Below are positions 12,608 to 53,332 of a stretch of DNA of 64,000 bases, piece after piece. The position numbers and the translations under genes were made by a program. The stretch's first letter is position 1. Each line of letters starts with the position of its first letter. The stretch covers positions 450,557-514,556 of the forward strand of contig MU004182.1 in assembly GCA_010093605.1 (NCBI GenBank), written 5' to 3'. The DNA is from Lophium mytilinum (Eukaryota; Ascomycota; Dothideomycetes; Mytilinidiales; Mytilinidiaceae). The notes below the pieces were generated by a model, which worked only from the letters and a program-made list of their open reading frames with translations, searched no databases and was not told the DNA's origin.

Positions 12608-13519
12608 ATGGCCGCCTATATTGATTATCTCAAGGCCCTCCTCAGCCGCGCCGACGCCAATGGCACCCTACTTGCGGAGGGAGCCCATGGCATTCAGTCT
12701 CCTCCCAACGACGAACCCGCAACGGCGACGAAGGCGAGCAATCTTGCCCGCGAGAACCTCAAATCTCTGGAATCTCTCCTAGCAGAGAATGACCGCAGCC
12801 TTCCAGATCAAATCAGAGAGAAGCTGCTGCAACATTCCCGCGTGTCGACACTATCAGGTCGCGCTTTGAACCTGTTCAATCTGTTGATGGAGCATAAGAC
12901 CGAAACCGTGTACACCACCATAGGCGCCGTCACCGCTAGTGTCTTAGGCTATCTGGTGGCCCAGTACGTGGCTCGACAGGCTGTGAAAGAAGAGGGCCAA
13001 GACCACGAAGTGGCCGGCTCGAGGCATCGCGTCGCCAAATCCCTCGAAGCCGGGTCCAAGACGGAAACTTTTGAACACGCGAAGGACCGTGAAGGTGGCG
13101 TCGCGGCCCTGAACAACGAGCTAGCCAAGCCGGGGAATGAGGTGAACGATATCGAGGGTGGTAACGATGGTGCAGTTGCAGAAGCGGATACAGAGAATCA
13201 TGTGGACTCGGGCTCACTGCTCAAGACCTGGGCGGAGAATTCGAGCGGCGCGAAGGACGAGGGAAAGCGTGAGGCTGCCGGAGACCACCAGACCGACGTC
13301 CGTTTGCCGACAATAACTATCAGCCCCGGACCTTCCAATACGCAGGAGCTCGAAGTAGTGGACAACAAGGTCTGCTTTGGCACTACGAATGCCAACCTTC
13401 CGCTCAATCAGACTATTGAGAGCGTTGATGGTGACTCCGGTGCGGACATCTCTTCACTAGACTTGGACTGGGAGGTCATAGATGATGAGCACGAGGTTGG
13501 TTGGGTTGGGGAAGACTAG
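12608..13519 (+). CDS. membrane coiled-coil family member A (unrecognised family)
   Basis: A single exon, 303 residues. The N-terminal domain (residues 1-95) begins MAAYIDYLKALLSR and contains the conserved LPDQIREKLL segment. A transmembrane helix lies at about 101-120 (VYTTIGAVTASVLGYLVAQY), preceded by LLMEHK. The rest is hydrophilic and acidic, and ends near W288 in LDWEVIDDE. The three cysteines shared by members C, D and F are replaced together here (C4 to Y, CDL to SNL, HC to HS). Its closest relatives in the window are at 15866, 27621(-) and 51614(-). Topology by the positive-inside rule would put the long tail in the cytosol. No known domain recognised; function unknown. Confidence 0.75.
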   Translation: MAAYIDYLKALLSRADANGTLLAEGAHGIQSPPNDEPATATKASNLARENLKSLESLLAENDRSLPDQIREKLLQHSRVSTLSGRALNLFNLLMEHKTETVYTTIGAVTASVLGYLVAQYVARQAVKEEGQDHEVAGSRHRVAKSLEAGSKTETFEHAKDREGGVAALNNELAKPGNEVNDIEGGNDGAVAEADTENHVDSGSLLKTWAENSSGAKDEGKREAAGDHQTDVRLPTITISPGPSNTQELEVVDNKVCFGTTNANLPLNQTIESVDGDSGADISSLDLDWEVIDDEHEVGWVGED

Positions 13520-14552
13520 CGGAGGTTTTTGATCGAGCTGTTGGGGTCTCGATCGGGTGCCCGAGTTGGAGCAGTACTATGGCAGTCGAATATTCAGTAG
13601 GTTTGACGGGCCCCTCAAAATCTCTCTCTCGGCAGTGGAGGATGTCGATGGTCTTGAGCTCCTCATGTACCGGTATTCACTATATTCTAGAGGATATTGC
13701 CTGCGCAATGCCTTGTAACCAAGTTTTCCTGTAGTCATGGCCCTTTCTTACAGGCCCATATCATTGATTATTATCTTTCTCTTCACGAAAAGCTCTTGCA
13801 ATGCTCGTGTATATCACCCGCCAAGATCGAACCGCGCTGGAAGCTCGGTTAAGTCGCGTCGATCCAGGGTCTATTCTATTATAAGAGTGGTGAATGATAG
13901 TGAGACTATACAGTCAATTTAATTTTCGCAGCCCCCACCAATCTTAGGGACTGGAACATTTCGCTCGTGATATGCTGGTAGACGTACTGGCGGACTGATG
14001 ATGTGGTTGCTTCTCTAAGGTATCCTTCCGGGGCGTCCAGGCTTTAGCCTGGAATCGGATTACGCTCCCTCCCTGAATGTCTAGGCCTAGCCTAGGTTCG
14101 AATCTTGCTCGGGTACTTCTTCTTTTCTACTTTTTGCTGCAATTCCGGCCTCGTACCGATCACGTAGTCGTGAAGCCTCCATGGTGTCACTAACACCTCT
14201 CTAGGACGTGTACCCACTCCGTATCTTTGCACGGGCGTGGCATCCGGGCCTTTCTCTTATTTGCGTGCGACTTCACGCGTCTCTTAACAGTGGCCTGTCG
14301 TCATGACCCATCGTTGGGAACTTTGCAAGTTCGGAGGTCTTCCTCTACGCTCCTTTCGGTCATAATCGCTAATTCTGTACCTCTCTGTAAAGAAATTCAT
14401 ATAGTGTTTAGTACTGGCCTCCTCTAAGCACTGTAAGTGTGAACCTGTTTGTTATTCCTCTGTTATTCTGATCAGGGTGAATGCTGTGCATACTTCAAAC
14501 ACGAAATATCCAACAGTACTCGATCCATTCACCAATGCCTATGCGTTGTGTC
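13520..14552. other. intergenic spacer
   Basis: No supported gene. At 14037-14053 a perfect hairpin CCAGGC-TTTA-GCCTGG occurs, followed near 14094 by a GGTTCGAATC string resembling a Pol III box B. The surrounding bases do not fold into a tRNA. Confidence 0.35.
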
Positions 14553-14560
14553 TATAAAAC
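14553..14560 (+). promoter_or_regulatory. TATA-type core promoter of family member B
   Basis: TATAAAAC is followed by CTCGAAG, about 135 bp before the ATG at 14696. It matches the TATAAAACCT seen upstream of member E. Confidence 0.5.
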
Positions 14561-14695
14561 CTCGAAGTCCCGTCAACAGCTTCTCTTCCACGTAACACCT
14601 ACAAATCAAAACCACCACCCACCACCTCGTTGCGAACCTTATTTACAAGCAACAGAACAACAAATATTCACCTCAACCAAATACTCAAATTCACC

Positions 14696-15118
14696 ATGCC
14701 AGACGCCGACTCAGAGGATCTCTGGGTCCTCCTGGAGGCGGTTCTGCGCCAAGCCCTCCCTCAGCTCGGAGAGGATTTCAAGACGGCCTGTCCGACTACC
14801 ACGTGGATCCTTAGCCTGATTATGGAGCACCCGGTGACGGCCGTGGCCCTGGCCGCAGGGGCACTGGCCATCGCGGCTGTGAGACCTCTAGTGATTTGGT
14901 GGACATCTCGAGAGCTAAAGGACACCGGTAGGGAAAAGCGTGCGCTCTTTAGAAAGGCGCGCGATGCAGACAGCCAGGCCGATCAGGAGAAGCTTCTGAA
15001 GCTTGAGGACATATTCAGTCAAGCCATTGATGAATATAACACCGGACCGAAAGATGTTCTGCTTGGGAAGAAACATCGCGAGGGTATCGGCGCCACTTTA
15101 GCGAAGTGGATAGTCTGA
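14696..15118 (+). CDS. short membrane family member B
   Basis: A single exon, 140 residues from the ATG at 14696. It lacks the long N-terminal domain but keeps the family membrane region: LIMEHP at 41-46, then AVALAAGALAIAAV. This resembles NLLMEHK in member A and ITAGALAITLIGY in member F. A charged helical stalk follows (RELKDTGREKRALFRKARD). The protein ends in LAKWIV, a truncated echo of the C-terminal tryptophan motif of its paralogues. It sits in tandem between members A and C, both on the same strand, suggesting local duplication followed by loss of parts. Function unknown. Confidence 0.65.
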   Translation: MPDADSEDLWVLLEAVLRQALPQLGEDFKTACPTTTWILSLIMEHPVTAVALAAGALAIAAVRPLVIWWTSRELKDTGREKRALFRKARDADSQADQEKLLKLEDIFSQAIDEYNTGPKDVLLGKKHREGIGATLAKWIV

Positions 15119-15702
15119 GAGTATCAATGACAGGGAACATAACAAGGTCTAGGACAGCGGCAACAGGGTATAGCTCCTGAATACCTCTTCGCTGATAACA
15201 ATGGCATATCAAGCATATTGTTTCTGACAAGTGACGTGAGCGACTTTCCGTTCTGGCTTTACTTTTGCAGGGCTAATTGTACTAGGGCCTGGCATGGGCA
15301 GAGATGCGAGCTATCTTGGCTCGACTGATCTGGCACTTCGATATAGAACTCGATGAGAGCTCGTTGTATTAGGACCGCGAGAAGGTTTCGGCGTGTGAGA
15401 GACGTCGCGTTTGACAGTTAGACTCAAGCTGAGGGACTCCTGATTCTGAGTAGAGCAAGGCTCAGAAGGTAGAGGATATATCTCATCACGGTGACCAGCA
15501 TATGACGGCTTGGAATGAGATTCATGGCCTGTGGTATATAATCACTAACTAAGAATATGTACAGCCGAGAGCTAGCTTCGTGGCAAGTCGCATCTACAGC
15601 AATTCACAGCAGTGCACCTGGCAATCCTTGCATAATATATACAGAAGTTGCGTAAAATCACCTCCATGGATTCACCGCTGGCTTTTGGTGGCATATCAAG
15701 CC
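15119..15702. other. intergenic spacer
   Basis: No supported coding sequence between the stop of member B and the TATA box of member C. Confidence 0.4.
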
Positions 15703-15711
15703 TATTTAAAC
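15703..15711 (+). promoter_or_regulatory. TATA-type core promoter of family member C
   Basis: TATTTAAAC, identical to the box of member A, lies about 155 bp before the ATG at 15866. A long C/A-rich leader of ACCACC and CAACC units follows. Confidence 0.5.
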
Positions 15712-15865
15712 CTCCCCTTCCTACAACTTACTCCTTTTCAACTCAAACACCCCACACCGCGCACCAACCACCACTTCGTCATCCACAGCAACCACCACTT
15801 CTTCATCTTCCACAGCATCCGCTAACATCACAACCCCAGCAAGCACTTTCAGCTCCTCAATCAGT

Positions 15866-16606
15866 ATGGCTAATTGCATAATCTTCCTCAAGTCTCTCTT
15901 GACCCGCAGCGATGCCAATAATACCCTTTCCGCTGAAGTCTACAACGGAATCAAGTGGTTGCCTAACGAAGAAGACTTCTACTGGCAGGTTTCTGCCAAC
16001 AAGACCTGCGGCCTTTCGAAAGAAGCCCAAGACGAGCTGAAGATTCTGTTGGAAGATGTCGCGCGGAACCTTCCCAATCCTATCAAGAAGGAGTTGATGC
16101 AGGTTTGCACGTGCTCGACGACCGGTCGTGTCCTGTACTTCCTGACAGGATCCAAGATGAGACTTGTTGGTACGGCTGTGGCAGTGGGACTAGCATATCT
16201 GGCTATAAAGTATGTGGTTCGGCATGGAAAGAAGATCCGCAAGGAGGAGCGGGAGATGTGCGAGATGAAGCTTGCTGAGTTGAAGCGCCAACTGGGAATC
16301 AATCTCAACGAAGAAGTCAATGAGCTCAAGGGGACTCTAGTCCACGCTGAAGATCTCAAGGGAGCAGTTGCAGGATTGGCCAAGCAGAAAGATCTCGACA
16401 AGCTTCAGGATCGGGTCGATACCATCAATAGCGGTGTTGAAGGGGAACAACTCCAGCAATCTCCCAAGGTGATAGCCGTAGACATGGAGGAGGGAGTCAC
16501 GGATGATCAGGAGGATGTCACTGCTGAATTCGATGGCGATTCCAACGGGTCAATTATTTCTGAGTGGATCGAGCTCGATGAGGAGTTGTGGAAGGAGGCG
16601 AAGTAG
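15866..16606 (+). CDS. membrane coiled-coil family member C
   Basis: A single exon, 246 residues. The N-terminal domain starts MANCIIFLKSLLTRSDANNT, close to member A, and carries the family landmarks GIKWLP, TCGL, LPNPIKKEL and VCTC. A transmembrane helix lies at about 98-118. It is followed by the family stalk KKIRKEEREM and a predicted coiled coil of about 60 residues. The acidic tail contains W234 in SIISEWIELDE. Conserved cysteines at 4, 48 and 81/83. The likely topology is N-terminus out, tail in the cytosol. No known domain; function unknown. Confidence 0.78.
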   Translation: MANCIIFLKSLLTRSDANNTLSAEVYNGIKWLPNEEDFYWQVSANKTCGLSKEAQDELKILLEDVARNLPNPIKKELMQVCTCSTTGRVLYFLTGSKMRLVGTAVAVGLAYLAIKYVVRHGKKIRKEEREMCEMKLAELKRQLGINLNEEVNELKGTLVHAEDLKGAVAGLAKQKDLDKLQDRVDTINSGVEGEQLQQSPKVIAVDMEEGVTDDQEDVTAEFDGDSNGSIISEWIELDEELWKEAK

Positions 16607-17446
16607 GCTGGCGGGACTCTGGAGTGAGTGGAGTGCTGTATCGAGATAAGTCCCGTAGCCCTTCATGTGTTAGACGAGCTTTCTGCAGCATTGCGATGGC
16701 TTGGGGAGCTCGAGTGTAGTACACCAGCTAATGGAAGCTTCGCAGACTATGTATCGTAAAGGGAGGTCATGGTTATCTCTACTTGATTCATGGTACTTTC
16801 TCGTGATGTCCTACTATGAACGCCGTTCTGCTTCACTTAGATTTCACAGTGACGCAAAAGAACAGAGCAGTGTTGACTTCAAGTGAATGAGTGGCCACTG
16901 ATTAAAGAGGGGAAGAAAGTGCGGTATTCGTTTTCGAGGGCGCTGATTATACCTCGGGAACAAGCTAGAATACAAGCTGAAAAAACCTACTCGTGAAACA
17001 ACTAGCGGTTTGTCTGAGAGCTCACTCGCAGAATTTCGCAGGCTTAATGGCCATCACATGCTCCTGTACCTACGATCACAAGCTTCGTGTACCAGGGTAT
17101 AGTAGCTCGGCGAACCAATGTGTGAGTGTATCTGGAAACGTAGGCAGTCCTAGCTGTGCACCCTATTTGTCCGTGACCAAATCCAACGCGCACTATGGAC
17201 AGAAGCGATCACGTCCACGACAGCTGCAATGGCCAAGAACATTTTAGATTTGGTCACATACGCGCGATATGGCGATAAAATGGCCCACCAAGCCAATTGT
17301 GTGATTGAACATCCGATCTACCGCGGAACTATCTTCATAACACTTTGCGTAGGTGCCGAGCCCGCCCTAATGAGTCTACCACTCTAGCGCTGGCGACGTA
17401 CAGGATCTATAACAAAGAAACACGTCACAGTCAAGTCCGTGGCTGT
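16607..17446. other. intergenic spacer
   Basis: Convergent 3' flanks of member C and the GMC oxidoreductase gene. No supported feature. Confidence 0.4.
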
Positions 17447-19792: not shown

Positions 19793-21024
19793 GGTTCTTG
19801 TTACTCTCCCTTGAGGCTACTGAAAAGTAAAGACCTCATCACGAATCGATCGATTTGCTGTTCTTATACGTCTGATCACTCAGTCGCGTCTTTCCGACTC
19901 GTTGTTGATTTCTCAGCGTCGTCATAATCCTCCAAAATTTTCTGAAAGATGTGGGGTCATGCAAGGAACCAAAGCCAGGCCTTGACCTTCACGCGCAAGT
20001 TCGCTTCGTTAGTTCAGTACCGCGAGGCCTGTATGGAGGACGGAGAAGCATATCTTACCCAGTACCGGGGACAGTGGGAGCTGCATGAACCCACGAGCTA
20101 GGAAACGAGCTCGGTTCCAGTCCGAGAGCTGTCTCGTTGCGGTGCGGTTGGAGCCCGTGCTGCTAACATGACGAAAGATGAGACGATACCACAACTACTC
20201 GAGATGCCAATTCCGACTTACCGGAGTGGTGCGAAACGCTCGATGAGGAAATGTTTGGTTCTGCCTAATTGGGAAAGGTGGCGCAACGATCAACGCGGGG
20301 ATTCCGGAGATCATGGCTGCATGGTGTCAGGGTGTCTCGGGGACCGAATGGCGGGTACGTTACCACTAGGCCGACAAAATGCGAAGGGAAGAGAGGGATG
20401 AGAAACTGTTGGTTTTGAACGTTGGCGCCTTGCCGCGCTCGACAATGTAGGAACTTTAAGGCTGTGAGAATGAATTTAATACTTTCACGTCCCGTCAGCA
20501 CATTGAGGCTAATGCAGCGATATGAAGGGCAATGTGAAGGGCGTTTTCGAGTACTTCAGGCTTAGCGGCACTCATGAAGTAGTCTGGTGCATTCGAGGTT
20601 GTTTATTGGGTCGTGAGACAAGCTGTGGGGTGGCTTTTGAGAGACGAAAAAGCAATTCGGACATTCATTGGATAAGCACCGACGCAAGTACTGAAATGTG
20701 GTGATTTCAACGCTGAAAGGAAATGAATCGGAATACATAATAATAATACAGTGACAGGCCACAAGTTTAGGAACACTGGATCGACACTGTTTGGGGTCCC
20801 CCTATAGGATTTTGAAAACCTAAGGGTGATGTCGAGGTTCAAGCGGTACAGATTGGACTACCTCTGGATTAATGGTCTGCTCTGCAGCTAGGGTACCCCC
20901 GACAATGGTGTCAGGTGGGCAAATTGGAACCAAGCTGTAATGAGTCCGTGTGTCTAGACTTATAGCTTACTACTGTAACATAGTTCACTCATTGAAAATG
21001 TATTCTCACATTGACGTAGCTAGT
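19793..21024. other. gene-poor spacer
   Basis: About 1.2 kb with short, unrelated frames on both strands. It includes the GMC promoter next to 19792. No supported gene. Confidence 0.4.
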
Positions 21025-21789
21025 TTAGGCACCACCGCCGCCTCCTGCTGCCCCTGCTCCGCCCCGCCTCCTCTCGGCCTCCATCATTGCTATAAAGCTG
21101 ACAACGATTTGATCCAGAAACTGCTCATCGAGTCCCTCGATCAGTATATTGAGCTGCCCATCCTTAGAAAATCTCAGCGAGCGCGCGAATGCTGCAAAAA
21201 CTTTACCGGTGGCGGCACCCTCAAGTTTCAAGCCCCCGCCACTCAGTGAAGAGGTGCCATAGTCGCTTGTGCCCTTCCAGTAAAACTGTCGCTCGGGGCC
21301 GGCAGGCAATTCAACGAGAAAGCGGCGTGTGAAGACGCCGTCCTTGCTCATCTCAGCCTTGTGCTTCCCCCCAAAGGCTAAATCTATGCGCGAGGTGAAG
21401 TGGTGGTATTTGACGCTGCCAATGACCGGGCCTGACGAGTTCACGCGGCGGATAAGGAGGTCTGCGAGGCCTGATCGATAGTCAACAAAGTACGCTGGTG
21501 TGCGCTTGTCGGGGAGGGTAAATGTGACGCTCTTGCGGCCTGTGAAGCCGCCTTCGCTGTAGATGTTGTACTGAGCGGCTACGGCTTGAGGTCCACGAGA
21601 TGCGTATATTGTGGGCTCATTGGCCCTTGAAGCAGCGACGGCATTCTGTGATCGGGTACTGTTCTGTAATGTGGGCTGGGCCATGGAGGCCACTGTGCGG
21701 TAGGATGGTGGTCGGGACGGGGTGTACTCTGGACGCGTGTCTTCTTGGACTTGATCAGGTGTATACGTTGGGAGATACGTGGTATCCAT
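21025..21789 (-). CDS. tubby-like/LURP-like fold protein (DUF6593-type)
   Basis: A single exon; I start at the ATG at 21789 (MDTTYLPTYTPDQ), giving 254 residues. An in-frame upstream methionine at 21879 would add a basic leader of 30 residues. A disordered Pro/Tyr/Ser-rich N-terminus with an RPPSYRTVA motif precedes a beta-rich domain at about 85-240 (YNIYSEGGFTGRKSVTFTL, SVKYHHFTSRIDLAFGG, RQFYWKG). This layout, PPSY then beta-strands with FYWKG, is typical of fungal proteins assigned to the tubby C-terminal-like superfamily. The C-terminus is poly-Gly/Ala. A role in membrane or lipid binding is only suggested by fold. Its link to the metabolite cluster is positional. Confidence 0.6.
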   Translation of the reverse strand: MDTTYLPTYTPDQVQEDTRPEYTPSRPPSYRTVASMAQPTLQNSTRSQNAVAASRANEPTIYASRGPQAVAAQYNIYSEGGFTGRKSVTFTLPDKRTPAYFVDYRSGLADLLIRRVNSSGPVIGSVKYHHFTSRIDLAFGGKHKAEMSKDGVFTRRFLVELPAGPERQFYWKGTSDYGTSSLSGGGLKLEGAATGKVFAAFARSLRFSKDGQLNILIEGLDEQFLDQIVVSFIAMMEAERRRGGAGAAGGGGGA

Positions 21790-27620: not shown

Positions 27621-28577
27621 CTAAGCTAATTTAGACTCCTTCCCCTCTGTATTCTCCACCAGCTCCCAATTAGAGGAGATATCCTCGGCCTTCAGTCTAG
27701 CTTCTCTCTTAGCCCTATAGGCTGCATCTGAGACCATCCAACCCTCGCTCTCTAGCCTGCCTTGGTCTTTCAGCCAATTGGAGAGAGGAATAAGGAGTTC
27801 GGGTATATCTTCCTTCATAGGGCATTCTCCCGTTGTTCCTTCATTTGCCTCCCCAGATTCAGGCCCAGGTTTTCCAGCGTGATCCGTCGCCACTGACGAC
27901 TCCTCCTGTTCGACGGTACGTTCCGGCGTCTCGAGTGCTGCGCTCTCCGTTCTAGCCTTTGCGCTGTCCAAAGAGAGCCTCTTCACCTGCACCTCCTCGG
28001 TCTTCTCAGCAAAATCGGACAGAGTTTCAGGCCATTGGTAGGTCAGCTTCTCAAGCAGTTGGCCGTATCGTTCACGTTCCTTTACTCGGACATCTTTGAC
28101 ATGACGCACAAGCTGCCTATCGTACTTTTCTCGCTCCTCTGCTTGGACAATTCCGGAAAGTCGCGCAAGTTGTTGAAAGGACCACTCCCGCTCCTCCATT
28201 CGAACCTTCTCGACATAACGGTTGAAGTGTTGTACGGCTAAGTATCCAACGACTGTCAGGCTGAGGGCGCCTGTCGTAGCGTAGGCGATGTGTTCTTTAC
28301 GTGCGAAAAGGAAGGCGATAATCGTACTGAATGCTGACTTCTGAAAGGTGCAGTGCTTGGCTAATTGTCGTTGAATGTGGTCAGGAAGACGAGACAGATA
28401 CTCGGTAAGGATCGTCTTCAGGTCTTGCTGCTTCTCTGCAGAGAGATCACAGACTGTAGCACCATTGAAGAGGCTGCCACTAGGAAGCGACTTGATCCCG
28501 GCGGCGACTGCGGGTGGCAGCGCGTTCTCACCAGTGGCACCGAGGAGAGTCTTGAGATAGTCCACACAAGCGGCCAT
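27621..28577 (-). CDS. membrane coiled-coil family member D
   Basis: A single exon on the minus strand, 318 residues. Its N-terminus, MAACVDYLKTLL, is close to member F (MASCFEYLKTLI). Family landmarks are GIKSLPSGS, VCDL, LPDHIQRQL and HC at 75-76. A transmembrane helix lies at about 97-117, followed by YVEKVRMEERE and charged helical repeats (two similar units, AEEREKYDRQL and VKERERYGQLL). The acidic tail ends with W304 in SSNWELVENTE. It sits between the exporter and the P450 of the metabolite cluster. Function unknown; single-pass membrane protein with a probable cytosolic tail. Confidence 0.78.
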   Translation of the reverse strand: MAACVDYLKTLLGATGENALPPAVAAGIKSLPSGSLFNGATVCDLSAEKQQDLKTILTEYLSRLPDHIQRQLAKHCTFQKSAFSTIIAFLFARKEHIAYATTGALSLTVVGYLAVQHFNRYVEKVRMEEREWSFQQLARLSGIVQAEEREKYDRQLVRHVKDVRVKERERYGQLLEKLTYQWPETLSDFAEKTEEVQVKRLSLDSAKARTESAALETPERTVEQEESSVATDHAGKPGPESGEANEGTTGECPMKEDIPELLIPLSNWLKDQGRLESEGWMVSDAAYRAKREARLKAEDISSNWELVENTEGKESKLA

Positions 28578-29408: not shown

Positions 29409-30089
29409 TCAAACCCCATTAACAGCTTCCACAATCTCCCACTCTCCGTCGGAAAGAAGCTCAGTTCTACGTCTCGAAGAAGAACCTTCGGTGCCAACAG
29501 TGGAGGAAGCATCATTGAAGAGAGGCCCTTTGGCCGCCGCTTTCATACCTTCGTCGATATGTCCATCGGCCGTTGCATCCTCTTCAGTCTCCTTCACAAT
29601 GCTCTCTGTAGCGTTAGCGTTCCTTCCTGCGTCTGATGCCACAATGAAGTCCTCGCACTGCATCGATATGACGCTCTTGCTACCCTTCAACCATTTCTTG
29701 ATTCGGCTAGAAACTGAACGGCCTTCCCCATCGTCTTTTCCAGTAGCCCCGTTCCATACCGCTTCGGTGCTCCGCTCGGATCGAGCCGGCTCATTCTCGC
29801 TCAACAAACCTGATAGGTGGGCCACTGTGTCTTGTAACGCTTGGTTCTGCGCCTTCATGGAAGCTTGAAGATCCCTGGACACGTCGACCAAAGACTGATT
29901 GAACGCCTGAGAATCAGCCAGCTTCTGTTCGTAGCCCTTGCGCACCTCTCTCCGCATGCGCTCCATTGTTTGGTTCATATATTGCATAGCCGCGAATGCG
30001 ATCAACGTGGTTACGAGTATGCCCGTAGCAAGGTAAGCCATAGCTGTCTTGTTGTCAAGGATGTCAAAGATGCTCTTGCAGCGAGCCAT
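29409..30089 (-). CDS. short membrane coiled-coil family member E
   Basis: A single exon; the ATG at 30089 gives 226 residues. The frame is open further upstream to 30527, but the TATA box at about 30270 lies within that extension and favours the shorter start. It keeps MARC at the N-terminus, then goes almost directly to the transmembrane helix at 16-37 (MAYLATGILVTTLIAFAAMQY) and the stalk MERMRREVRKGYEQKL, matching the stalk of member F. A coiled coil with QNQALQDTVAHL follows. The C-terminus is W217 in SDGEWEIVEAVNGV. It therefore looks like a family member without the 90-residue N-terminal domain. It is in tandem with member D. Function unknown. Confidence 0.7.
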   Translation of the reverse strand: MARCKSIFDILDNKTAMAYLATGILVTTLIAFAAMQYMNQTMERMRREVRKGYEQKLADSQAFNQSLVDVSRDLQASMKAQNQALQDTVAHLSGLLSENEPARSERSTEAVWNGATGKDDGEGRSVSSRIKKWLKGSKSVISMQCEDFIVASDAGRNANATESIVKETEEDATADGHIDEGMKAAAKGPLFNDASSTVGTEGSSSRRRTELLSDGEWEIVEAVNGV

Positions 30090-30262: not shown

Positions 30263-30273
30263 AAGGTTTTATA
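30263..30273 (-). promoter_or_regulatory. TATA box of family member E
   Basis: On the minus strand TATAAAACCTT lies about 174 bp before the ATG at 30089; nearly identical to the box of member B. Confidence 0.5.
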
Positions 30274-36101: not shown

Positions 36102-39100
36102 ATGCCTGCCACATCCACCCCCCAATCCCCGTCATCCACTGTCTCGTCTACCCCGTCGTGGGACAGCAGCAGACAGCGAGCAGGGAATGAGACTCCCTGG
36201 ACAGAAGTCAGCGAAGATGTTAGTGATCGTCCTACTCCTCATCTAAATCCTCCCAAGTCCGCCTTATCGCCACTATATACCCCCCCCACCCCCATCAGCT
36301 TTTCTTAGTACACTCCCTTCTCTCATCGGCACATCCCCACTGACACCACCGCAAAGGGCTCCACCACCAACGTCGCCATCGTCGGCCTCGGCTGCCGCGT
36401 CTCCGGCAACAACAACTCCCCCGAGGAACTCTGGTCCACTATCCTCCAGAAACTCGATACGTCTTCAGAAATCCCCGCCGCACGATGGGAGCCCTATCTC
36501 CGCCGCGACGCACGCAATGCCAAAACCCTCGCCAACGTCACAAAACGCGGCTACTTCCTCTCCAACCTACCTGCCTTCGACGCCGCCTTCTTCGGTATCT
36601 CTCCCAAGGAAGCCGAGCAAATGGATCCGCAGCAGCGCCTCTCCCTCGAAGTAACGTGGGAAGCGCTCGAGAACGCCGGAATCCCGCCACAGAGTCTATC
36701 TGGGTCGGATACTGCCGTGTTTATGGGCGTGAACAGTGATGACTATTCGAAGCTGTTGCTGGAAGATATCCCAAACGTGGAGCCATGGATGGGGATTGGA
36801 ACCGCGTATTGCGGCGTTCCCAATCGGATTTCTTACCATATGAATCTGATGGGCCCGAGTACGGCGGTTGATGCGGCGTGTGCGAGCTCGTTGGTTGCGA
36901 TCCATCACGGTGCCCGAGCTATCCTGGACGGAGAATCGAAGGTCGCGATAGCTGGCGGTGTCAATGCGCTGTGTGGTCCTGGCCTGACCAGTGTTCTGGA
37001 TAAGGCCGGGGCTACGTGCAAGGAGGGGTCTTGCAAGTCTTTCGACGACTCGGCGAATGGGTATGGGAGAGGGGAGGGTGCTACGGTGGTTATCCTGAAG
37101 CGCATGGAGGATGCTGTCAAGGACGACGACAACATCATCGCCGTCCTTCGGGGCTCTGCTGTCGGTCAAGATGGTAAGACCAACGGCATCATGGCGCCGA
37201 ATGCCAAAGCCCAGGAACGCGTCGCCAGGAAAGCTCTCTCTGTCGCCGATATCGATCCCTCAACCGTGGGCTACGTTGAAGCACACGCCACGTCCACCTC
37301 TCTCGGCGACCCCACCGAAGTAGCTGCTATCTCTGCCGTCTACGGGCAAGGCCGACAAAATGACCCTTGCTTCATTGGTTCCGTGAAACCCAACATCGGT
37401 CATCTCGAAGCTGGTGCTGGCGCTGCAGGCTTCATCAAAGCAGCCCTGGCGGTCAATAAGGGAATTCTTGCACCGCAAGCTAACCTCACCACGCTTAACT
37501 CCAAGGTCGATTGGAAGAAAGCTGGAGTACAAGTCGTCCAAAATACAACTGCATGGCCAGAATCTGAGGAGGTTCGACGAGCTGGCATCTGCTCCTACGG
37601 ATATGGCGGCACCGTTTCCCACGCAGTCATCGAGCAGTACATTAAGCCGCAGCATCCCCTAGCTGAAGACAGGGAAACGAGTGGTCCTCGGATCCTGCTC
37701 CTCTCTGCGCCTCAAGAGAAGCGTCTCGCCATCCAGGCTGGCACCCTACAGGAATGGATCGCTTCGGACGACGGGAAGCAGGACGACCTTACCTCCATCG
37801 CCAATACCTTGAGCACTCGTCGAGGCCATCACGACTACCGCGTCGCCTTCGTCGTCGACAGCCACGATGATGCTGCTGCAACCCTCAAAGCCTTCGCCGA
37901 AGATTCTGCAAACGAGTGGACCACATCAAGCCGATCCCTTGGTGCCAACAAGCCAGTCGTGTGGGTATTCTCAGGGCATGGCGCTCAGTGGAAGAACATG
38001 GCGAAGGAGCTCATCGGCAACCCCGTCTTCTACCGTGCCGTCAGCGCCCTCGACCCGATCGTACAAACTGAGATGGGCTTCTCCGCCCTGGAAGCGCTCA
38101 AGGCCGGAGACTTCGAGACCTCAACCCAGGTGCAGGTCTTGACTTACATTATGCAGGTCGGGCTCACGGCTGTCCTCCGATCCAAGGGCATCAAGCCTGA
38201 CGCAGTGATCGGCCATTCCGTTGGTGAGATTGCTGCAACGGTGGCGGCGGGCTCGCTATCTCCTGAAGAGGGCGCCCTCATCGTCACTCGCCGCGCGAAC
38301 CTCTACAGCCGTGTTGCAGGCTCAGGGGCAATGATTCTCGTCAACAAACCCTTCGCAGAGATGCAAGAGAAGCTAAGTGGTCGTTCTGACCTGGCTCCCG
38401 CTATCGATTCTTCGCCATCATCTTGCGTAGTATCTGGAGAGAAGAAGTCAGTCGAGGAGTTCACCGAAGAGCTGAAGACACAAGGTGTGAAGGCATTCCG
38501 TGTCAATACTGACATTGCCTTCCACCATCCCATGCTCGAGACTCTTCGCAAGGACCTCACCACCGCTCTTACAGGTGCTATCAAACCGCAAGCGCCTAAA
38601 GTGCCACTCTACTCCACCTCGCTCTCCGATCCTCGCGGCGACGCTCTTCGCGATGTCAGTTACTGGCTGGAGAACATGATCCACCCTGTCCGCCTCACCT
38701 CCGCGGTTGGTGCAGCGCTTGAAGACGGTCTCAGAGTCTTCCTCGAAGTCTCCACGCACCCTATCATTGCGCACTCGATCAGCGAAACCATCATGGACAA
38801 GGGCATCGAAGACTTCAAAGTCGCCAACACCATGACGCGGAACAAGCCCTCGGAGAAATCGATCCTCTCCAGTATCGCTCAACTGCATTGCAACGGTGCT
38901 GCTGTAGATTGGAAGAAGCAGATGGGGACTCAATGGTCGACCGCTGTGCCTCTTACGACATGGAGCCACAAAGATATCTGGCGGAGCATTGAGACCGGCC
39001 CTTTGAATGCCTCTACGACGCATGATGTAGATAAGCATACTCTCCTGGGCGAACGGTCTGCAATTGCGGGCGAGAGCACAGTTGTATACCGCACCGTCAT

Positions 39101-41582
39101 CGACGACCAGACGAAGCCGTTTCCTGGAAGCCATCCGCTACACGGCTCAGAGATCGTGCCAGCAGCTGCCCTTTGCAACACTTTCTTGCATAGCACCGGA
39201 GCGACCACGCTCTCCAACATCATTCTCCGTGTCCCAGTCGCAATCAGCCAGAAGCGCGATATTCAAGTCGTGGTTCACCCAGGCCAAGTCAAGATTTGCT
39301 CGCGCCTAACCCAAGACAAGGGGGAGCAGCAAGATGACGCCTCTTGGCTTACCCACACAACCGGTCGATGGGCCTTGGACACTACACCCGTGGAGCCCGA
39401 GGTGTTCGACGTTGAAGCTATCAAGTCGCGCATCGGAGCGAAGCTCGCGGACAACTTCTCCATCGACTACCTCGACAAGGTCGGCGTCTCTGCCATGGGA
39501 TTTCCATGGGCTGTGACCGAGCACTACGGCAACCTGAAAGAGATGATTGCACGTGTGGACGTCTCTCCTGAGACTGCTGCTGGCGAGGCTTTGCCGTGGG
39601 ACGAGTATTCGTGGGCCCCCATTTTGGATGCTGCGACGTCCGTTGGCTCTACGATCTTCATGGACAAGCCTGCTCTTCGCATGCCGGCGCAGATTGTGAA
39701 GGTGTTCAAGTACACGAGCCAGCCACCACCAAAAGTAGGCTATCTATACGTTGAAGAAGCTACGGATACCTCTCTAGCCGTGCACGTTACCGTTCTCAAC
39801 GAAGAAGGGGTAGCAGTCGCCAAGTTCCAGTCGATGCGATTCTCCGAAATCGAAGGGACTCCTGGTGTCAGTGGCAGTGTGGAAAGCCTAGTCCACCAGC
39901 TTGCTTGGCCCCCGGCTACATACAGCGAAGAAGCACTCCCTATCGACCATGTAGTGCTCATCTCTCGCGACCTCGAGCTCTCAGAGAAATACGCCATCTA
40001 CCTCAGCGACCGAGTGAGCTCCGTCACCACCTTGACGTCTGCCAACCAGCTCTCTGCACAGGGAGTGAGCGAGAAGGGCACTGCCATCGTATACGTTCCC
40101 GGCCGCGTCACTTCGCAAGAGCCGCTCGCAGCCGTCTCGCAGTCCTTCATCTTCGAGCTCCTCGACATCGTCAAGTTCGTCGTCAACTCCGAGCTCTCGG
40201 CCAAGGTCTTTGCCTTAACCGACCGCGTCTCTACGAGCGAAACGATCACAGGTCTCACACAGTCGCCTCTCCACGGTCTCACTCGGATCATCGCGTCCGA
40301 GCACCCCGAAGCCTGGGGCGGATTGATCGACCTAGAAGCCCCCATCTTCCCACTAGAAACAATGAAATACGTCCGTGATGCCGACAACATCCGAATCGTT
40401 GACGGTATTCCACGAGTAGCTCGACTACGCTCGCTCCCCAGGGAGAAGCTCCTGCCAGCCGCCGAACAAACAGGCCTCACCATCCGGCCTGAAGGCACAT
40501 ACCTCGTCACGGGAGGCCTTGGAGCACTCGGTTTCGAAGTCGCCGAATTCCTCGTCGAAAAGGGTGCTCGCCGCCTCATTCTCGTGTCTCGCCGCGGCAT
40601 GCCCGCACGCAGCCAATGGCCTTCACTGCTGAAATCAGACTCGCCCCTCGCGCCAGCCCTAAAGCGTATCCAGCTTCTCGAGTCCCACGGCGCAGTCGTC
40701 TACACCCTCGCGGTCGACATGTCCGCCCCCGACGCCGAATCCCGCCTCCGCTCCGCCATCGACACCCTCCCTTTCCCCCCCGTCACCGGCGTTGTCCACG
40801 CCGCTGGCGTGCTAGAAGACGAGTTGGTGCTCAACACAACCGCCCCCTCCTTCCAACGCGTCCTCGCCCCCAAAATCACCGGCGCGCTCGCCCTAAACTC
40901 CCTCTTCCCCATCGGTTCCCTCGACTTCCTCACCCTCTTCTCCTCCTGCGGCCAGCTCTTCGGCTTCCCGGGCCAAGCCTCCTACGCCTCAGGCAACGCC
41001 TTCCTCGACGCGCTCGCCACGCACCGCCGCAAACTCGGCGACAACGCCATCGCGCTGCAATGGACCAGCTGGCGCGGGCTGGGCATGGCCGCCAGCACCG
41101 ACTTCATCAGCGCCGAGCTCGCATCCAAAGGCATCACCGACATCACGCGCGACGAGGCCTTCCGCGCCTGGCAGCACGCCGCCAAGTACGACATGGACCA
41201 CGCCGTCGTGCTCCGCGCGCTGCAGCTCGAAGCCACCGAGCCGCTGCCCAGCGTGATGCTCGCGGATATCGCGCCGCGGAAGCAGGCGGAGGCGGGGGCT
41301 GCGGCGCCCGCGGCGAGTGCGGAGGCGGTGCCGACGGATGCGGCGGGGAAGAAGGCGTATCTGGATGCGAAGATTCGGGAGTGTGTGGCGAAGGTGCTGC
41401 ATAGCAGTGCTGATGAGGTGGATTCGAAGGCGCCGTTGAGCGATTTGGGGGTGGATAGCGTGATGACGGTGAGTTTGAGGAGTCAGTTGCAGAAGACGTT
41501 GGGGGTCAAGGTGCCGCCGACGCTAACGTGGAGTTGTCCTACTGTGGGGCATTTGGTTGGGTGGTTTGGGGAGAAGGTTTGA
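36102..41582 (+). CDS. iterative type I polyketide synthase, 6-methylsalicylic acid synthase type
   Basis: Exons 36102-36218 and 36357-41582, separated by a 138-nt intron, give 1780 residues, the usual 6-MSAS length. Domain order: KS (active Cys at about 214 in VDAACASS), AT (GHSVGEIA at about 657), thiohydrolase/dehydratase-like TH ([10 protein letters not shown] at about 965 and PILDAATS), KR (GGLGALG at about 1422, catalytic Tyr in SYASGN at about 1581) and ACP (phosphopantetheine Ser at about 1740 in LGVDSVMTV). There is no methyltransferase, enoylreductase or thioesterase, which defines the partially reducing 6-MSAS group. These make aromatic tetraketides such as 6-methylsalicylic acid, or pentaketides such as mellein. 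Chain length cannot be told from the domains. The KR region is strongly C-rich in third positions. Confidence 0.95.
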
Positions 41583-47600: not shown

Positions 47601-48130
47601 TGAGCTTACGTGATAACCCTTTTTTCCAATCAACTGAGGATGGTTGGGACCAATCCTTGTACTCCGTAAACGAGATCACATGCGTAGCAAGAGCCCAGAC
47701 TCGAGGAAGAGCGTGCTGACTCACACAGAGCTGAGAATAAGCACCAACTACGCATGCCTGCTCAACTCGTCTTATATGCTCTCTGCATCGTGAATAGGCG
47801 AGCCGTAGGATATCCCGTTCACACGTGCGAAAGTGTCGGATACGAGAATTGCGGTGACGGGGGCGTGCCGAGTACGAGCAAACACGCATCAGCTAATCTA
47901 AGAAGGCTTGCCAAAGCATCGTCAAGAGTAATCCTAAAACACGACCATTAAAACGGCGCGAAGTTAAGCCGTGGTTTCACGTTACCTAGGATGTCTCTGA
48001 AGAGGGCCTGACATGCTATAAACACATTGGTAGTACTAGTAGGAGAATCTATATATTTACAATAAATACAACACGATGCGGAAGAGAGGTGAGTCTAGTG
48101 GCGCCGGGAAGCAGTCTCATCTGCGTTATG
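44676..48130. other. long gene-free region between the two regulators
   Basis: About 3.4 kb. Many short frames on both strands but none with domains, splice partners or family resemblance. It contains the promoter of regulator 1 (44676 onward) and the 3' flank of regulator 2. GC content falls and no transposon ends are visible. Confidence 0.4.
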
Positions 48131-50296
48131 TCAAGTAATCCAATTATCACAATTGACATCATCGAGAAAAAGATCCCAGTCCATCCAAGGCGAAGGGTCA
48201 GTGAAGTGACCCAGACTGTCCAAGGCAGCGACAAGATCTTTGTCCTCGAAGGGCCCAGGATATAAGTTCTGGTCGACGTGTGGAAGTTCGCCGGGTTGCA
48301 AGACCTCACCCATTGACCCCTCGGGCTTTATCGGAAAGTCTGACGGGAAATCTGACACCGCACTCGTCTGGACGGACGTATTCTCTAAGGCATAACTCGT
48401 GGGAATTTCGGCAGTCTTGTATCGATTATGAAGAACCATTCGAGTCTTCTTCATCAGCTTCACAATCGGCCTCCACAGCATGCCTGTGTACGCATCGGCT
48501 ATTTGCTGGGAGTATTGCTCGAACGCGCTCTCCGCGGCAGTCCAAGCTCGACCAACACTTGGGTGGTCCGGCTGGGTGCATATCTCCGCCAGGACAACGG
48601 CAAGAGCGTACCATGGCACCCAGATAAACCAGGCCCAAGGAAACAACGCCGGGGATCGATTTGTGAAAAGCGAGCGCTCGACGACTCCAGTTGCCGCAAT
48701 CAAAACATCAAAGTCATCATCCGGCGGGGGTCTTGAGTCTTGCGGAGCGCGATGCATTGGTCGATAGAGCAGCACTCTCATCGACGCAGCAACATGCGAT
48801 GCGGTCATTGTGGCGTTGATATGGAGGGGATCAGATTCGCCGCAATATCTGACGACGCGCTCTTGCATCTCCCTTTCGAATTGCGTGAGAACATCAAGTC
48901 GGTCTTGCCAGGTTTGGAGGCTATCGCGCGATTGACTCCCACGGCTCGTGAAATCGTATCCGAGTCGGCGGTAGTTGACCATGGCTAGATGCGTTACTAG
49001 AGAGGGCGACATGTCTGTGAAACCGCCGGATGTCGTTGATAAACCTGCCAATTCGGCGTCGTTGACGTAGGCAGGCGGTCTGTCGAATTCCTCGGGGCGG
49101 AGCAACGGTACAGAGCCTCGATCTAGAGAGGTTTGTATGTCTAAAAGGCCAATACAATACCACAGTCTGCGCTTCGATTCCTTCTCCAAGGGCGACGAAC
49201 GCGGGTCTTCGACAGAAGGAATCCCTTGGCCATTTGCGAGACGAATTGCTAGAGCTACAAGAGCCCAAGTAGTGGACCGATTGGTACGAGTACGAAGCGC
49301 TACCTATACGATGGCTTGTAATTAGCGATTGCGACATGTTGTAGCTCAGGCGAGCAAGATGGAAAGGCGCTAGAATGTCGGAAAGGGTATTCGCCTTACG
49401 AGGTATATCACAAAAGCTTGCAAGACAACGTGGTCTCTGCTCGTGATAAGGTCAACACGTGAGAAAGCAGCCTCAGCAGCCGTCTGAAAGTGTTTATTCA
49501 GCGATTCTTTTCCTTGGCGTAGTATTTGCATCGACTCCGCTTCAGACAAGGTGCACAAGGCGGCGAAATAGATGGCATATTCCAAAGCCTCGACGCTCAG
49601 AGACACTGGCCGTGATGGGTCTGAGTACTTCTCGGTCACTGCAGCACACATTGTTGGCCAGTGGCCGACCTTGAATATCATATCAACTCGAAACTTGAAT
49701 ATGGCGAGCAATTTGTCTCTCAAATCTTGAGGAGGTGGCTGCAAGTCCCGGTTGGGTGTACCTTCCGACAGGCTCGTAAAGAAAACTGCGTTCGCGTGAA
49801 AACTGTGGCCGGGTGACGGTTCGCTGGTGGTGTTTTGGCTTTCCGGGGACTCGCCTTCGTCGTCGGACGGCTCTTCCAAAACATCGCGTAGTCCCGTGAC
49901 CTGCAGATGAGTTGATCAGCTCGGCTAGCTCTCATGACAATGGAGTTATGTCAATACCTCTGCAGCAAGGCCTGCCCAGAAGTCCGGCGCGACAAACCTC
50001 TTCGCATTGACAGCTATAGTTGGATCTTCAAGGGTATTTCTCGAGGAGGTTAGAACCTCAGAACCAGACTCTTGCTTTGGGGACGATGCGGTTGCTTCTA
50101 GCTGTCGCACCATGTCCTCCAATCGCAGGATTCTGTTATTGAGAGCATCTTTCCGTGGTCGACGCTTGCGCTTGTGCTGAACAGCGGTGCATTCGAGTTT
50201 TGTCTTTTGGCACGGACCACAAGGCAACGTCTTATCGCACTTGACCTTGCGTTGTCGGCATTGTTCGCAGCTCAGCTTCGTTGTAGGGGGAGCCAT
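48131..50296 (-). CDS. Zn2Cys6 fungal transcription factor 2
   Basis: Exons 50296-49958, 49900-49400 and 49303-48131, all phase 0, 670 residues. The zinc cluster is at residues 10-36 (CEQCRQRKVKCDKTLPCGPC), followed by the basic linker HKRKRRPRKD and a short coil. The fungal-specific TF domain spans about 150-450 (YAIYFAALCTLSEAES, WALVALAIRLANGQGIP, RRLWYCIGLLDIQTSLDRG). The C-terminus is acidic with WMDWDLFLDDVNCDNW, an activation-domain-like stretch. It could be a second pathway regulator or an unrelated neighbour; orientation and spacing do not decide. Confidence 0.9.
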
Positions 50297-51613
50297 CACA
50301 CGTGAGATAGGTATAGAGGATCTACCTTTCGGGAGAAGATAAGATGAAGATGAAGGTGTCGAAGCGGTCAAATTCGTGGTGACGTTGACATAAGCCCAGT
50401 GCACTAGGGGCTAGATCGGTGCCTATAATTAGCGGAAAACTTTAAATGACCCTGCCGTCTCAGATAAGACTAGTTCTCGATATTGATCTCTTGTTTGGAT
50501 GAGGCAGGCATTTGCAGTGGGATGTTCTGATTGTGCTGTTGCGATTTAATCCGAAGACGGAGAGTAAGAGCCTTTAAGAAGATCACATTCATTGAAACAT
50601 CAGCGGCCAAGGCAAGAAGCGATGATTCGTTGCGCCCTACGGAGTACTAGAGAAGTGCAATAGTGTTCTGGTCCGGTCCTGGAGTTCTGTGTTAATAACC
50701 AGGCCATTGCTCAGCAGCCAAGGTGATGACTCAGTGAGCGGGCCTAGCCCTACGGTGCCTGACGAGAGGATCAGTCCACTTTCTAGGGCACGCGAGTCCA
50801 GGTCTAGTCACGAAATTCTCACCATTAGACTCTGTCTCTTTTTAGACTATGCGAGCTCCTCTATAATAGTGGTAGCCTTGCATTTAAACTCCACAGTGCC
50901 ATGCACAGGCACAGATGTAGTACCTTGATCATCTAAAGGGGAATAGTATAGGCCGAATCAGGTAAGAGGCGCTTCTGACTACAAATCTACCTGCCCACAA
51001 TCCTCTATACTACACCAGCTTCGACAAGACCTTTATCACAACCAAGGCATCGTTAGAAGCAGTTCTAATCACTAATCCAGCATACTTGAACATCAAGAAC
51101 GGACAATTACTGGAATACGAGCATCCAACCAATCAGAAGCCGAAGATTGCGGACTTCCGAGAGGGGAAAACCTCCCGAACTCGGAACCTCAACACTGTAC
51201 TATTCGGCCTTTCGTTGTGATAGAATACATTCTACGAAATCAAGGGCCATGAGCTCCAGTGTCTGGTTTAAAAAGTTGAGCATCAGTGAAAGCCAAGAGA
51301 AGGTCGCCGGGTAGTCGAGTACAAGCCATCAATGAACGCCAGCTTCTCGGCAACTATAGCTAGGATCCCTGCTCTAGTAGAACAGACTGGGTTTTTGAGG
51401 TACGCAGCTCTTCTCAAAAGAGATGATCGTGATGATCTTGAAAAACTAGTGGGGACAGGGACAGGGAGATATTATTCATGTCGGTTCATTGGCTACAACT
51501 AGCTACCATACCCTTAACTCGTGTATGCAGGTTATAAGAATGCAATATATCTCCAAAACAATAGAAAGCCGCGACAGAAAACAACATCCACGGCTCTCCC
51601 AATTGTAGTGTGC
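50297..51613. other. intergenic spacer
   Basis: Promoter of regulator 2 and the 3' flank of family member F. Only short unsupported frames. Confidence 0.4.
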
Positions 51614-53332
51614 CTACTGGTCAAATACGGCGCCCTCCCAACCTTCTGACTCTGCTGTATTCAGCTCATCCCACTCAGACAAAATATTCGATTCGGCGGT
51701 CTTGTCGTTAGAAGAGTTTTGAGTATCAGCTGAAGGTAGCTCGACCGGGTCCCACTCCGAAGAAACAGACTTGGGAGACTCATTGCTGTCCTCAATGATG
51801 TTCGGGCATGGAGCTGAAGCCGCGTCGGCAAGTGCTACTTCGAGTTCGACCTCCCGTTTCAGAGCTTCATTTTTATTTTCATTTCCATGAAGCAGTGCCA
51901 ATTCTGCATCGGTCCACGTGGCATGATCTTCAGTCGTCTTTGCTTCAGGGAAATCGTGTAGGGACTCGGCCATATCCTCAACAGTCGATAAATCCCCCTC
52001 AGGGCCTTCGGTGTCTCCAACAGCCTGTTCAATCACCACCTTGATAGCGGCGAGAATGGGGTCAACTTTCGACGGGTTGTTATGGATCAGGGCCTGCTCA
52101 AGCAAGGCCTGAGAGATGAAGCGCAGTGCAGTGCGAACATCATTGGTATTCACAACTTCCTCGTGATACTTCCTTAGATGATCTGACTCGGCCTTGAAAA
52201 TCATCTCCGAGAATTTCTTCTTGATCTGCACCAAGACGTAGTCATGATGCTCCCGGTCGGCCGTGCAAACGTCAAACAGAGAGCGGATCTTAGGAGCCTG
52301 GTCGGAAATCCAACTGCTAACATTTTCGGTGGTCGTATTGCCATCCAGGAAAGCAGCGTTTTGTGGAAGCGTGTCAACCAGCCTGTCTGCAGCTGTATGG
52401 TGTTCATCAGCTGCCGCAGAGCTGGACTCCGAGCCCTCTATCATCTCATCTTTCTTGGGATTCAAATTCTCGGACTCATACTTGGAAGATCCAGGTTTTG
52501 GGATCTGCGCTTTTTCTTCGCCCTCGTCATCGCTTTCCTCGGCAATCCGGGTCATCACTTTCGTAATGATGGCCTCAAGCTCGTCTGCTTGCACCAGCGT
52601 TTGCTGCCTTTTTGCCAGACCCTCGACAAGCGTTACAATTCTCCCTAGAAGATTCGTTTGCACATTCTCATCTTCAGCTCCCTCGATTCTAGCCTTGACC
52701 AACTCTAAAATCTGCGCTTTAGTGCTCTCCCTATCCTTCTCCAATTCATCGACTCGCATGTCCGTAGCTTTCTTTGCGGCGTTGAGTTCTCCGATCTGAG
52801 TGATCAGCTCATCTCGAGCTTCTTCAACTTTCCGATCGAGAGACTCAGTGAAGCGGCGTTCGAGGGCAGCAAGCTTGACGTGGTACACGGCTTGTTTTTC
52901 CAGGAGTTGGGTCTCGTAGCCAGCTGTTTCCTTCGCGAGGAACGCCCGCTCCTCCTTCCGAACCTTCTCAATGTGTTTCATCGCGTACTGGACCGTGGCA
53001 TATCCGATCAGAGTAATGGCCAGTGCACCTGCAGTGATACTGGCTACATTAGACGGCTTGTATTCGATGAGGAACTTAAGAACACCGGTGGGCTTCTTGC
53101 ACTGGCAGTATACTTGAAGCTCGTTCTTGATCCGGTCGGGTAGGGCATAGCTATGATCCGCAAGGATTGCTTTTATATGTTGTTGAACCTCTTGGGGGAG
53201 GTCGCACGTTGCAGCGGTGTATAGGGAACTGCCGGTAGGAAGGAATTTGATGGCAGTGGTGAATGATTTCGGCAGTACACGTTTGTCCTGGCTATTGATA
53301 AGAGTCTTTAGGTACTCAAAGCACGACGCCAT
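51614..53332 (-). CDS. membrane coiled-coil family member F (longest)
   Basis: A single exon from the ATG at 53332, 572 residues. The N-terminal domain has MASCFEYLKTLI, AIKFLPTGSS, TCDL, LPDRIKNEL and YCQC. A transmembrane helix lies at about 96-117 (ITAGALAITLIGYATVQY), then KHIEKVRKEER and a long coiled coil to about residue 270. A helical middle region (about 370-470, FDVCTADREHHDYVLVQIKK) is unique to this member. The tail carries two tryptophan motifs, W527 (SSEWDPVELP) and W554 (LSEWDELNT). The frame extends 55 codons further upstream, but the TATA box at 53447-53453 lies inside that extension. Function unknown. Confidence 0.78.
   Translation of the reverse strand: MASCFEYLKTLINSQDKRVLPKSFTTAIKFLPTGSSLYTAATCDLPQEVQQHIKAILADHSYALPDRIKNELQVYCQCKKPTGVLKFLIEYKPSNVASITAGALAITLIGYATVQYAMKHIEKVRKEERAFLAKETAGYETQLLEKQAVYHVKLAALERRFTESLDRKVEEARDELITQIGELNAAKKATDMRVDELEKDRESTKAQILELVKARIEGAEDENVQTNLLGRIVTLVEGLAKRQQTLVQADELEAIITKVMTRIAEESDDEGEEKAQIPKPGSSKYESENLNPKKDEMIEGSESSSAAADEHHTAADRLVDTLPQNAAFLDGNTTTENVSSWISDQAPKIRSLFDVCTADREHHDYVLVQIKKKFSEMIFKAESDHLRKYHEEVVNTNDVRTALRFISQALLEQALIHNNPSKVDPILAAIKVVIEQAVGDTEGPEGDLSTVEDMAESLHDFPEAKTTEDHATWTDAELALLHGNENKNEALKREVELEVALADAASAPCPNIIEDSNESPKSVSSEWDPVELPSADTQNSSNDKTAESNILSEWDELNTAESEGWEGAVFDQ

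Follow-up and report, generated by a model that had tools for sequence, protein, structure and literature searches.

The DNA analysed here is a window of 64,000 nucleotides, positions 450557-514556 of contig MU004182.1 of Lophium mytilinum, a Dothideomycete of the order Mytilinidiales with a genome of 43.18 Mb in 24 contigs; no genome paper for the species was found in the literature searched. The window carries six genes, A to F, each a single open reading frame (ORF), which an earlier note had described as encoding a dispersed family of single-pass coiled-coil proteins and which were all found where it had placed them. By sequence comparison, A to F are paralogues of one orphan family of predicted single-pass membrane proteins. 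Gene A (12608..13519 of the window, + strand) encodes 303 residues that comprise an N-terminal domain (N-domain, residues 1–95), a membrane helix at about residues 100–122 and an acidic tail with the terminal motif LDWEVI, as assigned from ORF, homology, hydropathy and motif. Gene B (14696..15118, +) encodes a truncated protein of 140 residues, with the second half of the N-domain and a membrane helix at about residues 46–68. Gene C (15866..16606, +; 246 residues) has the N-domain, a membrane helix at about residues 98–118, a basic stalk and the terminal motif SEWIEL; gene D (27621..28577, −; 318 residues) has the same order of parts, with the helix at about residues 96–117 and the terminal motif SNWELV. 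Gene E (29409..30089, −), when its start is corrected to Met73 of the ORF first listed, encodes 226 residues with a membrane helix, a basic stalk and the terminal motif GEWEIV, and has no N-domain. Gene F (51614..53332, −) encodes 572 residues, in which the N-domain, a membrane helix at about residues 94–116, the basic stalk and a long helix are followed by a helical stretch found in F only and by an acidic tail with two motifs. A, B and C lie in tandem in the same orientation, as do D and E.

Relationships among the members were examined with BLASTP and with profiles whose E-values were scaled to the 1604 stop-to-stop ORFs of the window. Pairwise, A, C, D and F match each other at 2e-10 to 7e-30 with 22–37% identity, and E matches D and F at about 2e-6. 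The three sequence patterns by which a common N-terminal domain of 90 residues had been proposed for A, C, D and F match all four proteins, and leave-one-out profiles of this domain recovered the omitted member each time (A 2e-14, C 2e-21, D 4e-20 and F 5e-18). By both approaches the members align with each other well above background. When the membrane helix is included, the A/C/D/F profile recovers E at 2e-7, through the helix and stalk, and B at 6e-4; none of the remaining ORFs does better than 1.7. The score of E is 27.5 bits against 4.5 for the best of 1000 shuffles, 746 of which reported a score. Over profile positions 54–136 B scores 16.7 bits, whereas the top-scoring shuffle among 1000 (824 with a reported score) reaches 7.4; B is therefore taken to keep half of the N-domain. 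The three patterns as written match neither B nor E. The proposal that both proteins lack the domain thus stands for E but not for B, which keeps its second half. No further family member was seen in the window, also when a six-member profile was used.

One hydrophobic stretch stands out in the hydropathy plot of each protein, and one membrane helix per protein is predicted. The best 19-residue mean hydropathy is 1.44 in A, 2.15 in B, 1.90 in C, 1.55 in D, 1.92 in E and 1.76 in F, such that A and D lie under 1.6, the customary mean-hydropathy threshold for a membrane helix. The stalk pattern that had been ascribed to all six proteins occurs as written only in E (1 of 6) and in a relaxed form in C, D, E and F; neither A nor B has it. 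The coiled coil of the earlier description was not borne out. In a simple shuffle test with 500 shuffles per protein, the heptad contrast of A to F was equalled or exceeded by 53, 202, 210, 200, 67 and 334 shuffles, respectively.

Single chains of D and F were modelled with AlphaFold2 at a mean predicted local distance difference test (pLDDT) score of 52.3 (4 sequences) and 49.6 (5 sequences), respectively. Both models contain, at low confidence, a single long helix that runs from the membrane segment to residue 214 in D and 217 in F. The helices of the D model, likewise of low confidence, span residues 2–12, 22–29, 47–63, 66–75, 80–91 and 100–214. The tail pLDDT is below 50 at D residues 299–318 and over most of F residues 507–572, in models that are poor throughout and that draw short helices there. 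Foldseek at E up to 10 returned 4 and 392 matches for these poor D and F models, none of them at 0.001, and the matches are given no weight. The helical stretch found in F only (residues 361–410; 52103–52252, −) has the best local confidence in F (70–78) and has no Pfam or PDB match. The N-domain contains cysteines at positions 4, 48, 81 and 83 in C, at 4, 43 and 76 in D and at 4, 43, 76 and 78 in F, of which positions 4, 43/48 and 76/81 are common to the three proteins; A has none. At its corrected start E begins with MARC, and one cysteine of B aligns with position 76. These cysteines may form a disulfide or a metal site that was lost in A; a disulfide would suit a lumenal N-domain, a point too thin to be ranked.

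No Pfam model exceeded its cut-off for any of the six proteins, and a PDB sequence search reached a best E of 0.91 with the A/C/D/F N-terminal profile and 0.74 with F alone. The profile match to a known characterised family, which the earlier note had named as the outcome that would speak against its proposal, did not appear at significance in Pfam or PDB. The extent of divergence and the lack of a Pfam or PDB match support the description as a coherent, fast-diverging membrane-protein family without a recognised domain. SLATT_fungal (PF18142) was listed for D, over residues 85–133 at 12 bits and E 0.23, and was not listed for the other five members at E up to 1. That the family consists of SLATT-type membrane proteins with a role in fungal conflict or as effectors is a highly improbable explanation. 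The weak contact made by D points to it, but the score lies far under the curated gathering cut-off of 26.5 bits, SLATT is described as having two transmembrane helices whereas one is predicted here, and no NACHT, SMODS or SLOG match was found among 28 neighbouring stretches scanned.

Five of the six proteins (all but A) were used as queries against the genome itself, and every place found at E < 0.1 lies in the window. The best places outside it reached E 0.18 with C, 0.7 with B, 2 with D and 2.1 with E, and with F nothing outside passed 0.001, the limit of that search. The family is thus dispersed within the window only, with no confident member elsewhere. These searches scored only 3–8 candidates per query, and with E or B as query some known members went unrecovered; a very diverged member elsewhere could therefore be missed. 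Among proteins, the A/C/D/F profile found only A and D in the 7996 candidates scored from a capped list, C not being returned and F lying outside the length limit. A search with D residues 1–140 returned only D at E up to 10, with all 308 candidates scored. It did not return A, although A is in the database and is 32% identical to D; thus, relatives below about 40% identity could have been missed. In a control search with the polyketide synthase (PKS) of the window, 7506 of 7989 scored candidates passed 1e-100, with many named fungi among the 120 matches listed, in which the closest non-identical PKS is 77% and the closest named other fungi are 75% identical. The control shows that the database covers proteomes of fungi. 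Viral contigs and prokaryote genomes yielded 119 and 37 pattern matches, respectively, none a relative. Lineage specificity, as proposed earlier, is therefore only weakly tested: the D search missed a paralogue that is in the database, and no non-identical PKS above 77% identity was among the matches listed.

The tails had been described as widely varying. They do diverge, but a W-x-x-[LIV] motif close to the C-terminus is common to A, C, D, E and F, with the tryptophan 16, 13, 15, 10 and 19 residues from the end, respectively. The motifs are LDWEVI in A (residues 286–291; 13463..13480, +), SEWIEL in C (residues 232–237; 16559..16576, +), SNWELV with the core W-x-x-V in D (residues 302–307; 27657..27674, −), GEWEIV in E (29430..29447, −) and SEWDEL in F (residues 552–557; 51662..51679, −), which carries SEWDPV as a second motif (residues 525–530; 51743..51760, −). 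Their contexts are SLDLD-WEVI, GSIISE-WIEL, DISSN-WELV, LLSDGE-WEIV, NILSE-WDEL and SVSSE-WDPV, and the consensus terminal peptide of the five proteins is [SLG]-[DEN]-W-[DEI]-x-[LIV]. B ends in ...AKWIV and lacks this motif in its tail. Among A, C, D and F the principal BLASTP matches stop at residues 131–259, before the motif in every pair; an extra weak match (E 0.47) between C residues 194–238 and F residues 514–558 spans it. In shuffles of the last 120 residues, the probability of W-x-x-[LIV] in the last 26 residues is 0.087–0.113 per protein, and the product of the five probabilities is 8e-6, a value that assumes independence, which paralogues do not fully have. The motif occurs in the last 26 residues of 9 of the 68 mechanical ATG-ORFs of at least 100 residues (5 family, 4 other). 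On these comparisons conservation of the terminal motif is firm and its binding partner is not. A second tail tryptophan stands exactly 11 residues past the first in A (...EVGWVGED; 13469-13516, +) and F (...SEGWEGAVFDQ; 51617-51673, −), and 8 residues past it in C, which suggests a longer common C-terminal module.

The motif resembles the Atg8-interacting motif (AIM), or LC3-interacting region (LIR), whose core is [WY]-x-x-[LIV] with an acidic residue at −3 to −1, +1 or +2, according to the definition quoted in PMC5119064. In A, C, D, E and F the terminal motif conforms to this definition by inspection; B has none in its tail. The xLIR pattern of the same source finds only five matches in the six proteins, namely one tail motif each in A, C and E and both of those in F. 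A W-type xLIR in the last 28 residues has a shuffle probability of 0.011–0.019 in each protein and is present in A, C, E and F, not D; 4 of the 68 mechanical ATG-ORFs have one, every one of them family. A LIR matrix, distinct from the iLIR matrix, was built from the 27 verified LIRs of PMC5119064 with assumed residue frequencies. It places the tail motif as the top hexapeptide in A (23.8), C (21.9), D (13.7), E (23.1) and F (23.5); the highest-scoring hexapeptide of B, DLWVLL at residue 10 (17.9), lies outside the tail. The top five of all 1775 hexapeptides in the six proteins are tail motifs (20.8–23.8), followed by DLWVLL of B as sixth and SNWELV of D as seventh. Left out in turn, the verified LIRs score 3.5–26.8 with a median of 16.9. 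A further five verified LIRs that were not used for training range from 6.2 to 23.3, and the median of 20 unverified matches is 12.9. As background, 2 of 5997 hexapeptides from other genes of the window reach 16, the best at 22.9. The genome has an Atg8 match, one detected, at C15:247049-247309 (E 1.8e-37), and the one TAG inside it is presumably an intron.

BNIP3 and BNIP3L are small membrane-anchored mitophagy receptors with a C-terminal anchor, and the Arabidopsis protein Q9SB64 is presumably NBR1, a soluble receptor. The LIRs of BNIP3 and BNIP3L, GSWVEL and SSWVEL, lie within residues 16–39 (PMC5119064); their W-x-E-L form is close to SEWIEL of C, but they are N-terminal and the likeness is that of the motif only. 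The verified Q9SB64 LIR, SEWDPI (PMC5119064), is one residue off SEWDPV of F, again a comparison of six residues only. TEX264, a mammalian endoplasmic reticulum (ER)-phagy receptor, resembles the predicted architecture of the family in its one membrane helix, long C-terminal region, disordered spacer and LIR near the C-terminus (PMC6971691). It differs in having about 5 residues before the helix and an F-type LIR, FEEL, where the family has an N-domain of about 90 residues and a W-type motif, and no sequence similarity is claimed. The sequence of the disordered TEX264 tail may be irrelevant if long and flexible, the LIR excepted (PMC6971691), a match for the conserved anchor, diverging tail and preserved terminal peptide of the family. 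Atg39 and CCPG1, also ER-phagy receptors, have in common with the predicted layout of the family a single-pass anchor and W-type motifs (WNLV and WTVI), but their motif lies in a cytosolic N-terminus and their C-terminus is lumenal (PMC6971691), whereas the family motif is C-terminal.

The TEX264-like layout and the Atg8 match in the genome lead to a reading of the family as membrane-anchored selective-autophagy receptors or adaptors with a terminal Atg8-docking motif, which is tentatively the best explanation and is held at somewhat less than an even chance. The membrane helix would anchor the protein in an organelle membrane and the N-domain would select the membrane site or cargo. A cytosolic tail would serve as a flexible spacer, and the terminal W-x-x-[LIV] would dock into Atg8 on the growing autophagosome, giving the protein a putative function in turnover.

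Several observations weigh against this reading. Docking to Atg8 is so far a prediction from sequence. The tail motif was noticed after the sequences had been looked at, B is the sole member of the six without it, and residues −2 to −4 are often hydrophobic, not acidic, in A, C, D and F. D, which like B has no xLIR match, fails that pattern at position −1. By inspection none of the six motifs fits the strict cLIR pattern, which fits 11 of the 27 verified LIRs (PMC5119064). Given the cLIR result and the failure of D, the proteins may work like AIM receptors and are only putative members of that class. The matrix score of D is near the median of the unverified matches. The matrix itself is noisy, because the verified LIRs left out span so wide a range and one background hexapeptide scored as high as it did. 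SEWDPV of F owes part of its score to the presence of the near-twin SEWDPI among the training sequences. The charges flanking the helix in A to F (0, −1, +2, +1, +1 and +3 on the N-side; −2, +2, +2, 0, +3 and +2 on the C-side) disagree between members and do not fix the topology. No signal peptide was seen in the family proteins, as judged by eye only, so that a cytosolic tail would require the N-domain of about 95 residues to cross the membrane. The heptad test was negative throughout, and the models of D and F are too poor for a fold to be assigned.

Since the motif is firm and its partner is not, the proteins may instead be membrane-anchored adaptors whose conserved terminal tryptophan motif docks a partner that is not Atg8. 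An adaptor of trafficking or of a motor would be one such partner, as kinesin light chain is for W-acidic peptides. This alternative is possible if doubtful. Hydrophobic residues at −2 to −4, together with a +1 residue that is acidic in most of the motifs, suit several kinds of tryptophan-anchored peptide. However, the kinesin light chain W-acidic pattern, L-[DE]-W-[DE], fits by inspection only A (LDWE) of the five terminal motifs, and the LIR matrix puts the tail motif first in all five proteins.

For gene E, the ORF is present as listed and the start is probably internal to it. Of 20 stretches scored for synonymous-codon usage, the 72 codons before Met73 look least like coding sequence (−0.085 per codon), and a TATAAA (30268..30273, −) lies inside the originally listed ORF, 184 bp upstream of Met73. 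For these two reasons translation of E most likely starts at Met73, position 30089; from there on the codon usage is itself only neutral (−0.006). Compared with the neighbouring genes, codon usage is alike in A, B and C, weakly alike in D and F and neutral in E. A TATA-like box lies 110–210 bp before the ATG in 5 of the 6 family promoters, D having none there. The frequency of such boxes in random 100-bp stretches is 0.054; the pattern was picked after the promoters had been read, and at least one further gene examined, Nnf1, has such boxes nearby too.

These features bear on another explanation of the locus, by which young and fast-evolving orphan genes form a local tandem array where recombination is active, metabolic genes moved in, the family plays no part in the cluster and the tail motif is inherited rather than selected. 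The tandem, same-orientation arrangement of A-B-C and D-E, the resemblance of B and E to truncation products and the lack of a close relative in protein searches of limited reach are all consistent with it. It is nevertheless considered unlikely. At the pairwise identities found here an unselected tail peptide should have decayed as the rest of the tail did. The codon usage of A, B and C, weakly that of D and F, is like that of the neighbours, with E neutral, and the TATA-like box in most family promoters, a pattern chosen post hoc, exceeds the random frequency.

The six family members span 41 kb and are interleaved with the genes of a metabolite cluster of the 6-methylsalicylic-acid-synthase type (17376-50410). 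Its PKS (36309-41579, +) is one open frame of 1757 codons with KS, AT, DH, KR and ACP domains identified by Pfam and carries the database label 'uniref: 6-methylsalicylic acid synthase'. As the PKS gene is likewise one long ORF, the single-ORF structure is not confined to the family. The cluster also contains a P450, a GMC oxidoreductase, an FAD monooxygenase-like gene and two Zn2Cys6 regulators, together with MFS-like and cupin-like genes that were read from translations by eye and that Pfam did not confirm. A DUF6593 gene in the cluster region (21025-21789, −) is a single ORF. An ORF of 206 residues (53564-54184, +), for which no Pfam family exceeded its cut-off, is divergent from F with about 230 bp between the two starts, and a shared promoter is possible. 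No family member lies among the housekeeping genes at 1–11 kb.

Family and cluster promoters were compared over 600 bp, with some cluster-gene starts guessed. No regulator-type palindrome or other element common to both groups was found in these 600-bp promoters. CGG-N-CCG sites with differing spacings occur in A, B, F and 4 of 8 cluster promoters, and the promoters of C, D, E and the PKS have none. The family promoters share three 7-mers in 5 of the 6, against a control mean of 0.39 and a control maximum of 4, and three 8-mers in 4 of the 6, against a mean of 0.49 and a maximum of 6; all but one of these k-mers are ACC-rich. The counts for longer k-mers are inflated because the control stretches can overlap each other. 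Above the control mean and within the control maximum, the shared k-mers were rejected as a signal of co-regulation. The link between family and cluster is positional only.

That position suggests a further explanation, compatible with Atg8 docking, in which the proteins serve the 6-methylsalicylic-acid cluster as accessories, shaping or turning over the membranes that house its P450 and other enzymes. The close interleaving of the six members with the PKS, P450, GMC and FAD enzymes and the two regulators, and their absence from the housekeeping stretch, argue for it. Position alone, however, also fits chance insertion or accretion, and neither a common palindrome nor k-mer sharing beyond the control maximum links the promoters. 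This explanation is accordingly rated improbable. A combined proposal, in which an expanded set of membrane-anchored Atg8 receptors belongs to the cluster itself and each N-domain selects a site or cargo, is very unlikely. A search of open-licence PMC papers found none that links biosynthetic gene clusters, autophagy receptors and Atg8. If the proposal were true, the membranes of 6-methylsalicylic-acid-derived chemistry would be marked for autophagy, and metabolite production and membrane turnover would be inherited as one unit.

As far as these comparisons reach, the local gene family is genuine, is unmatched in the libraries searched and has a conserved terminal motif. If the tails bind Atg8, single-pass autophagy receptors with a W-type motif at the C-terminus and an N-terminal domain not described before would form a multi-gene family in a filamentous fungus, within a metabolite cluster. 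Even without Atg8 binding, the terminal motif makes these orphan proteins testable with one peptide, one predicted partner and one point mutant. The family would be ordinary if its members are neutral orphan genes, notable if their tails bind Atg8, and striking if it is tied to the metabolite cluster.

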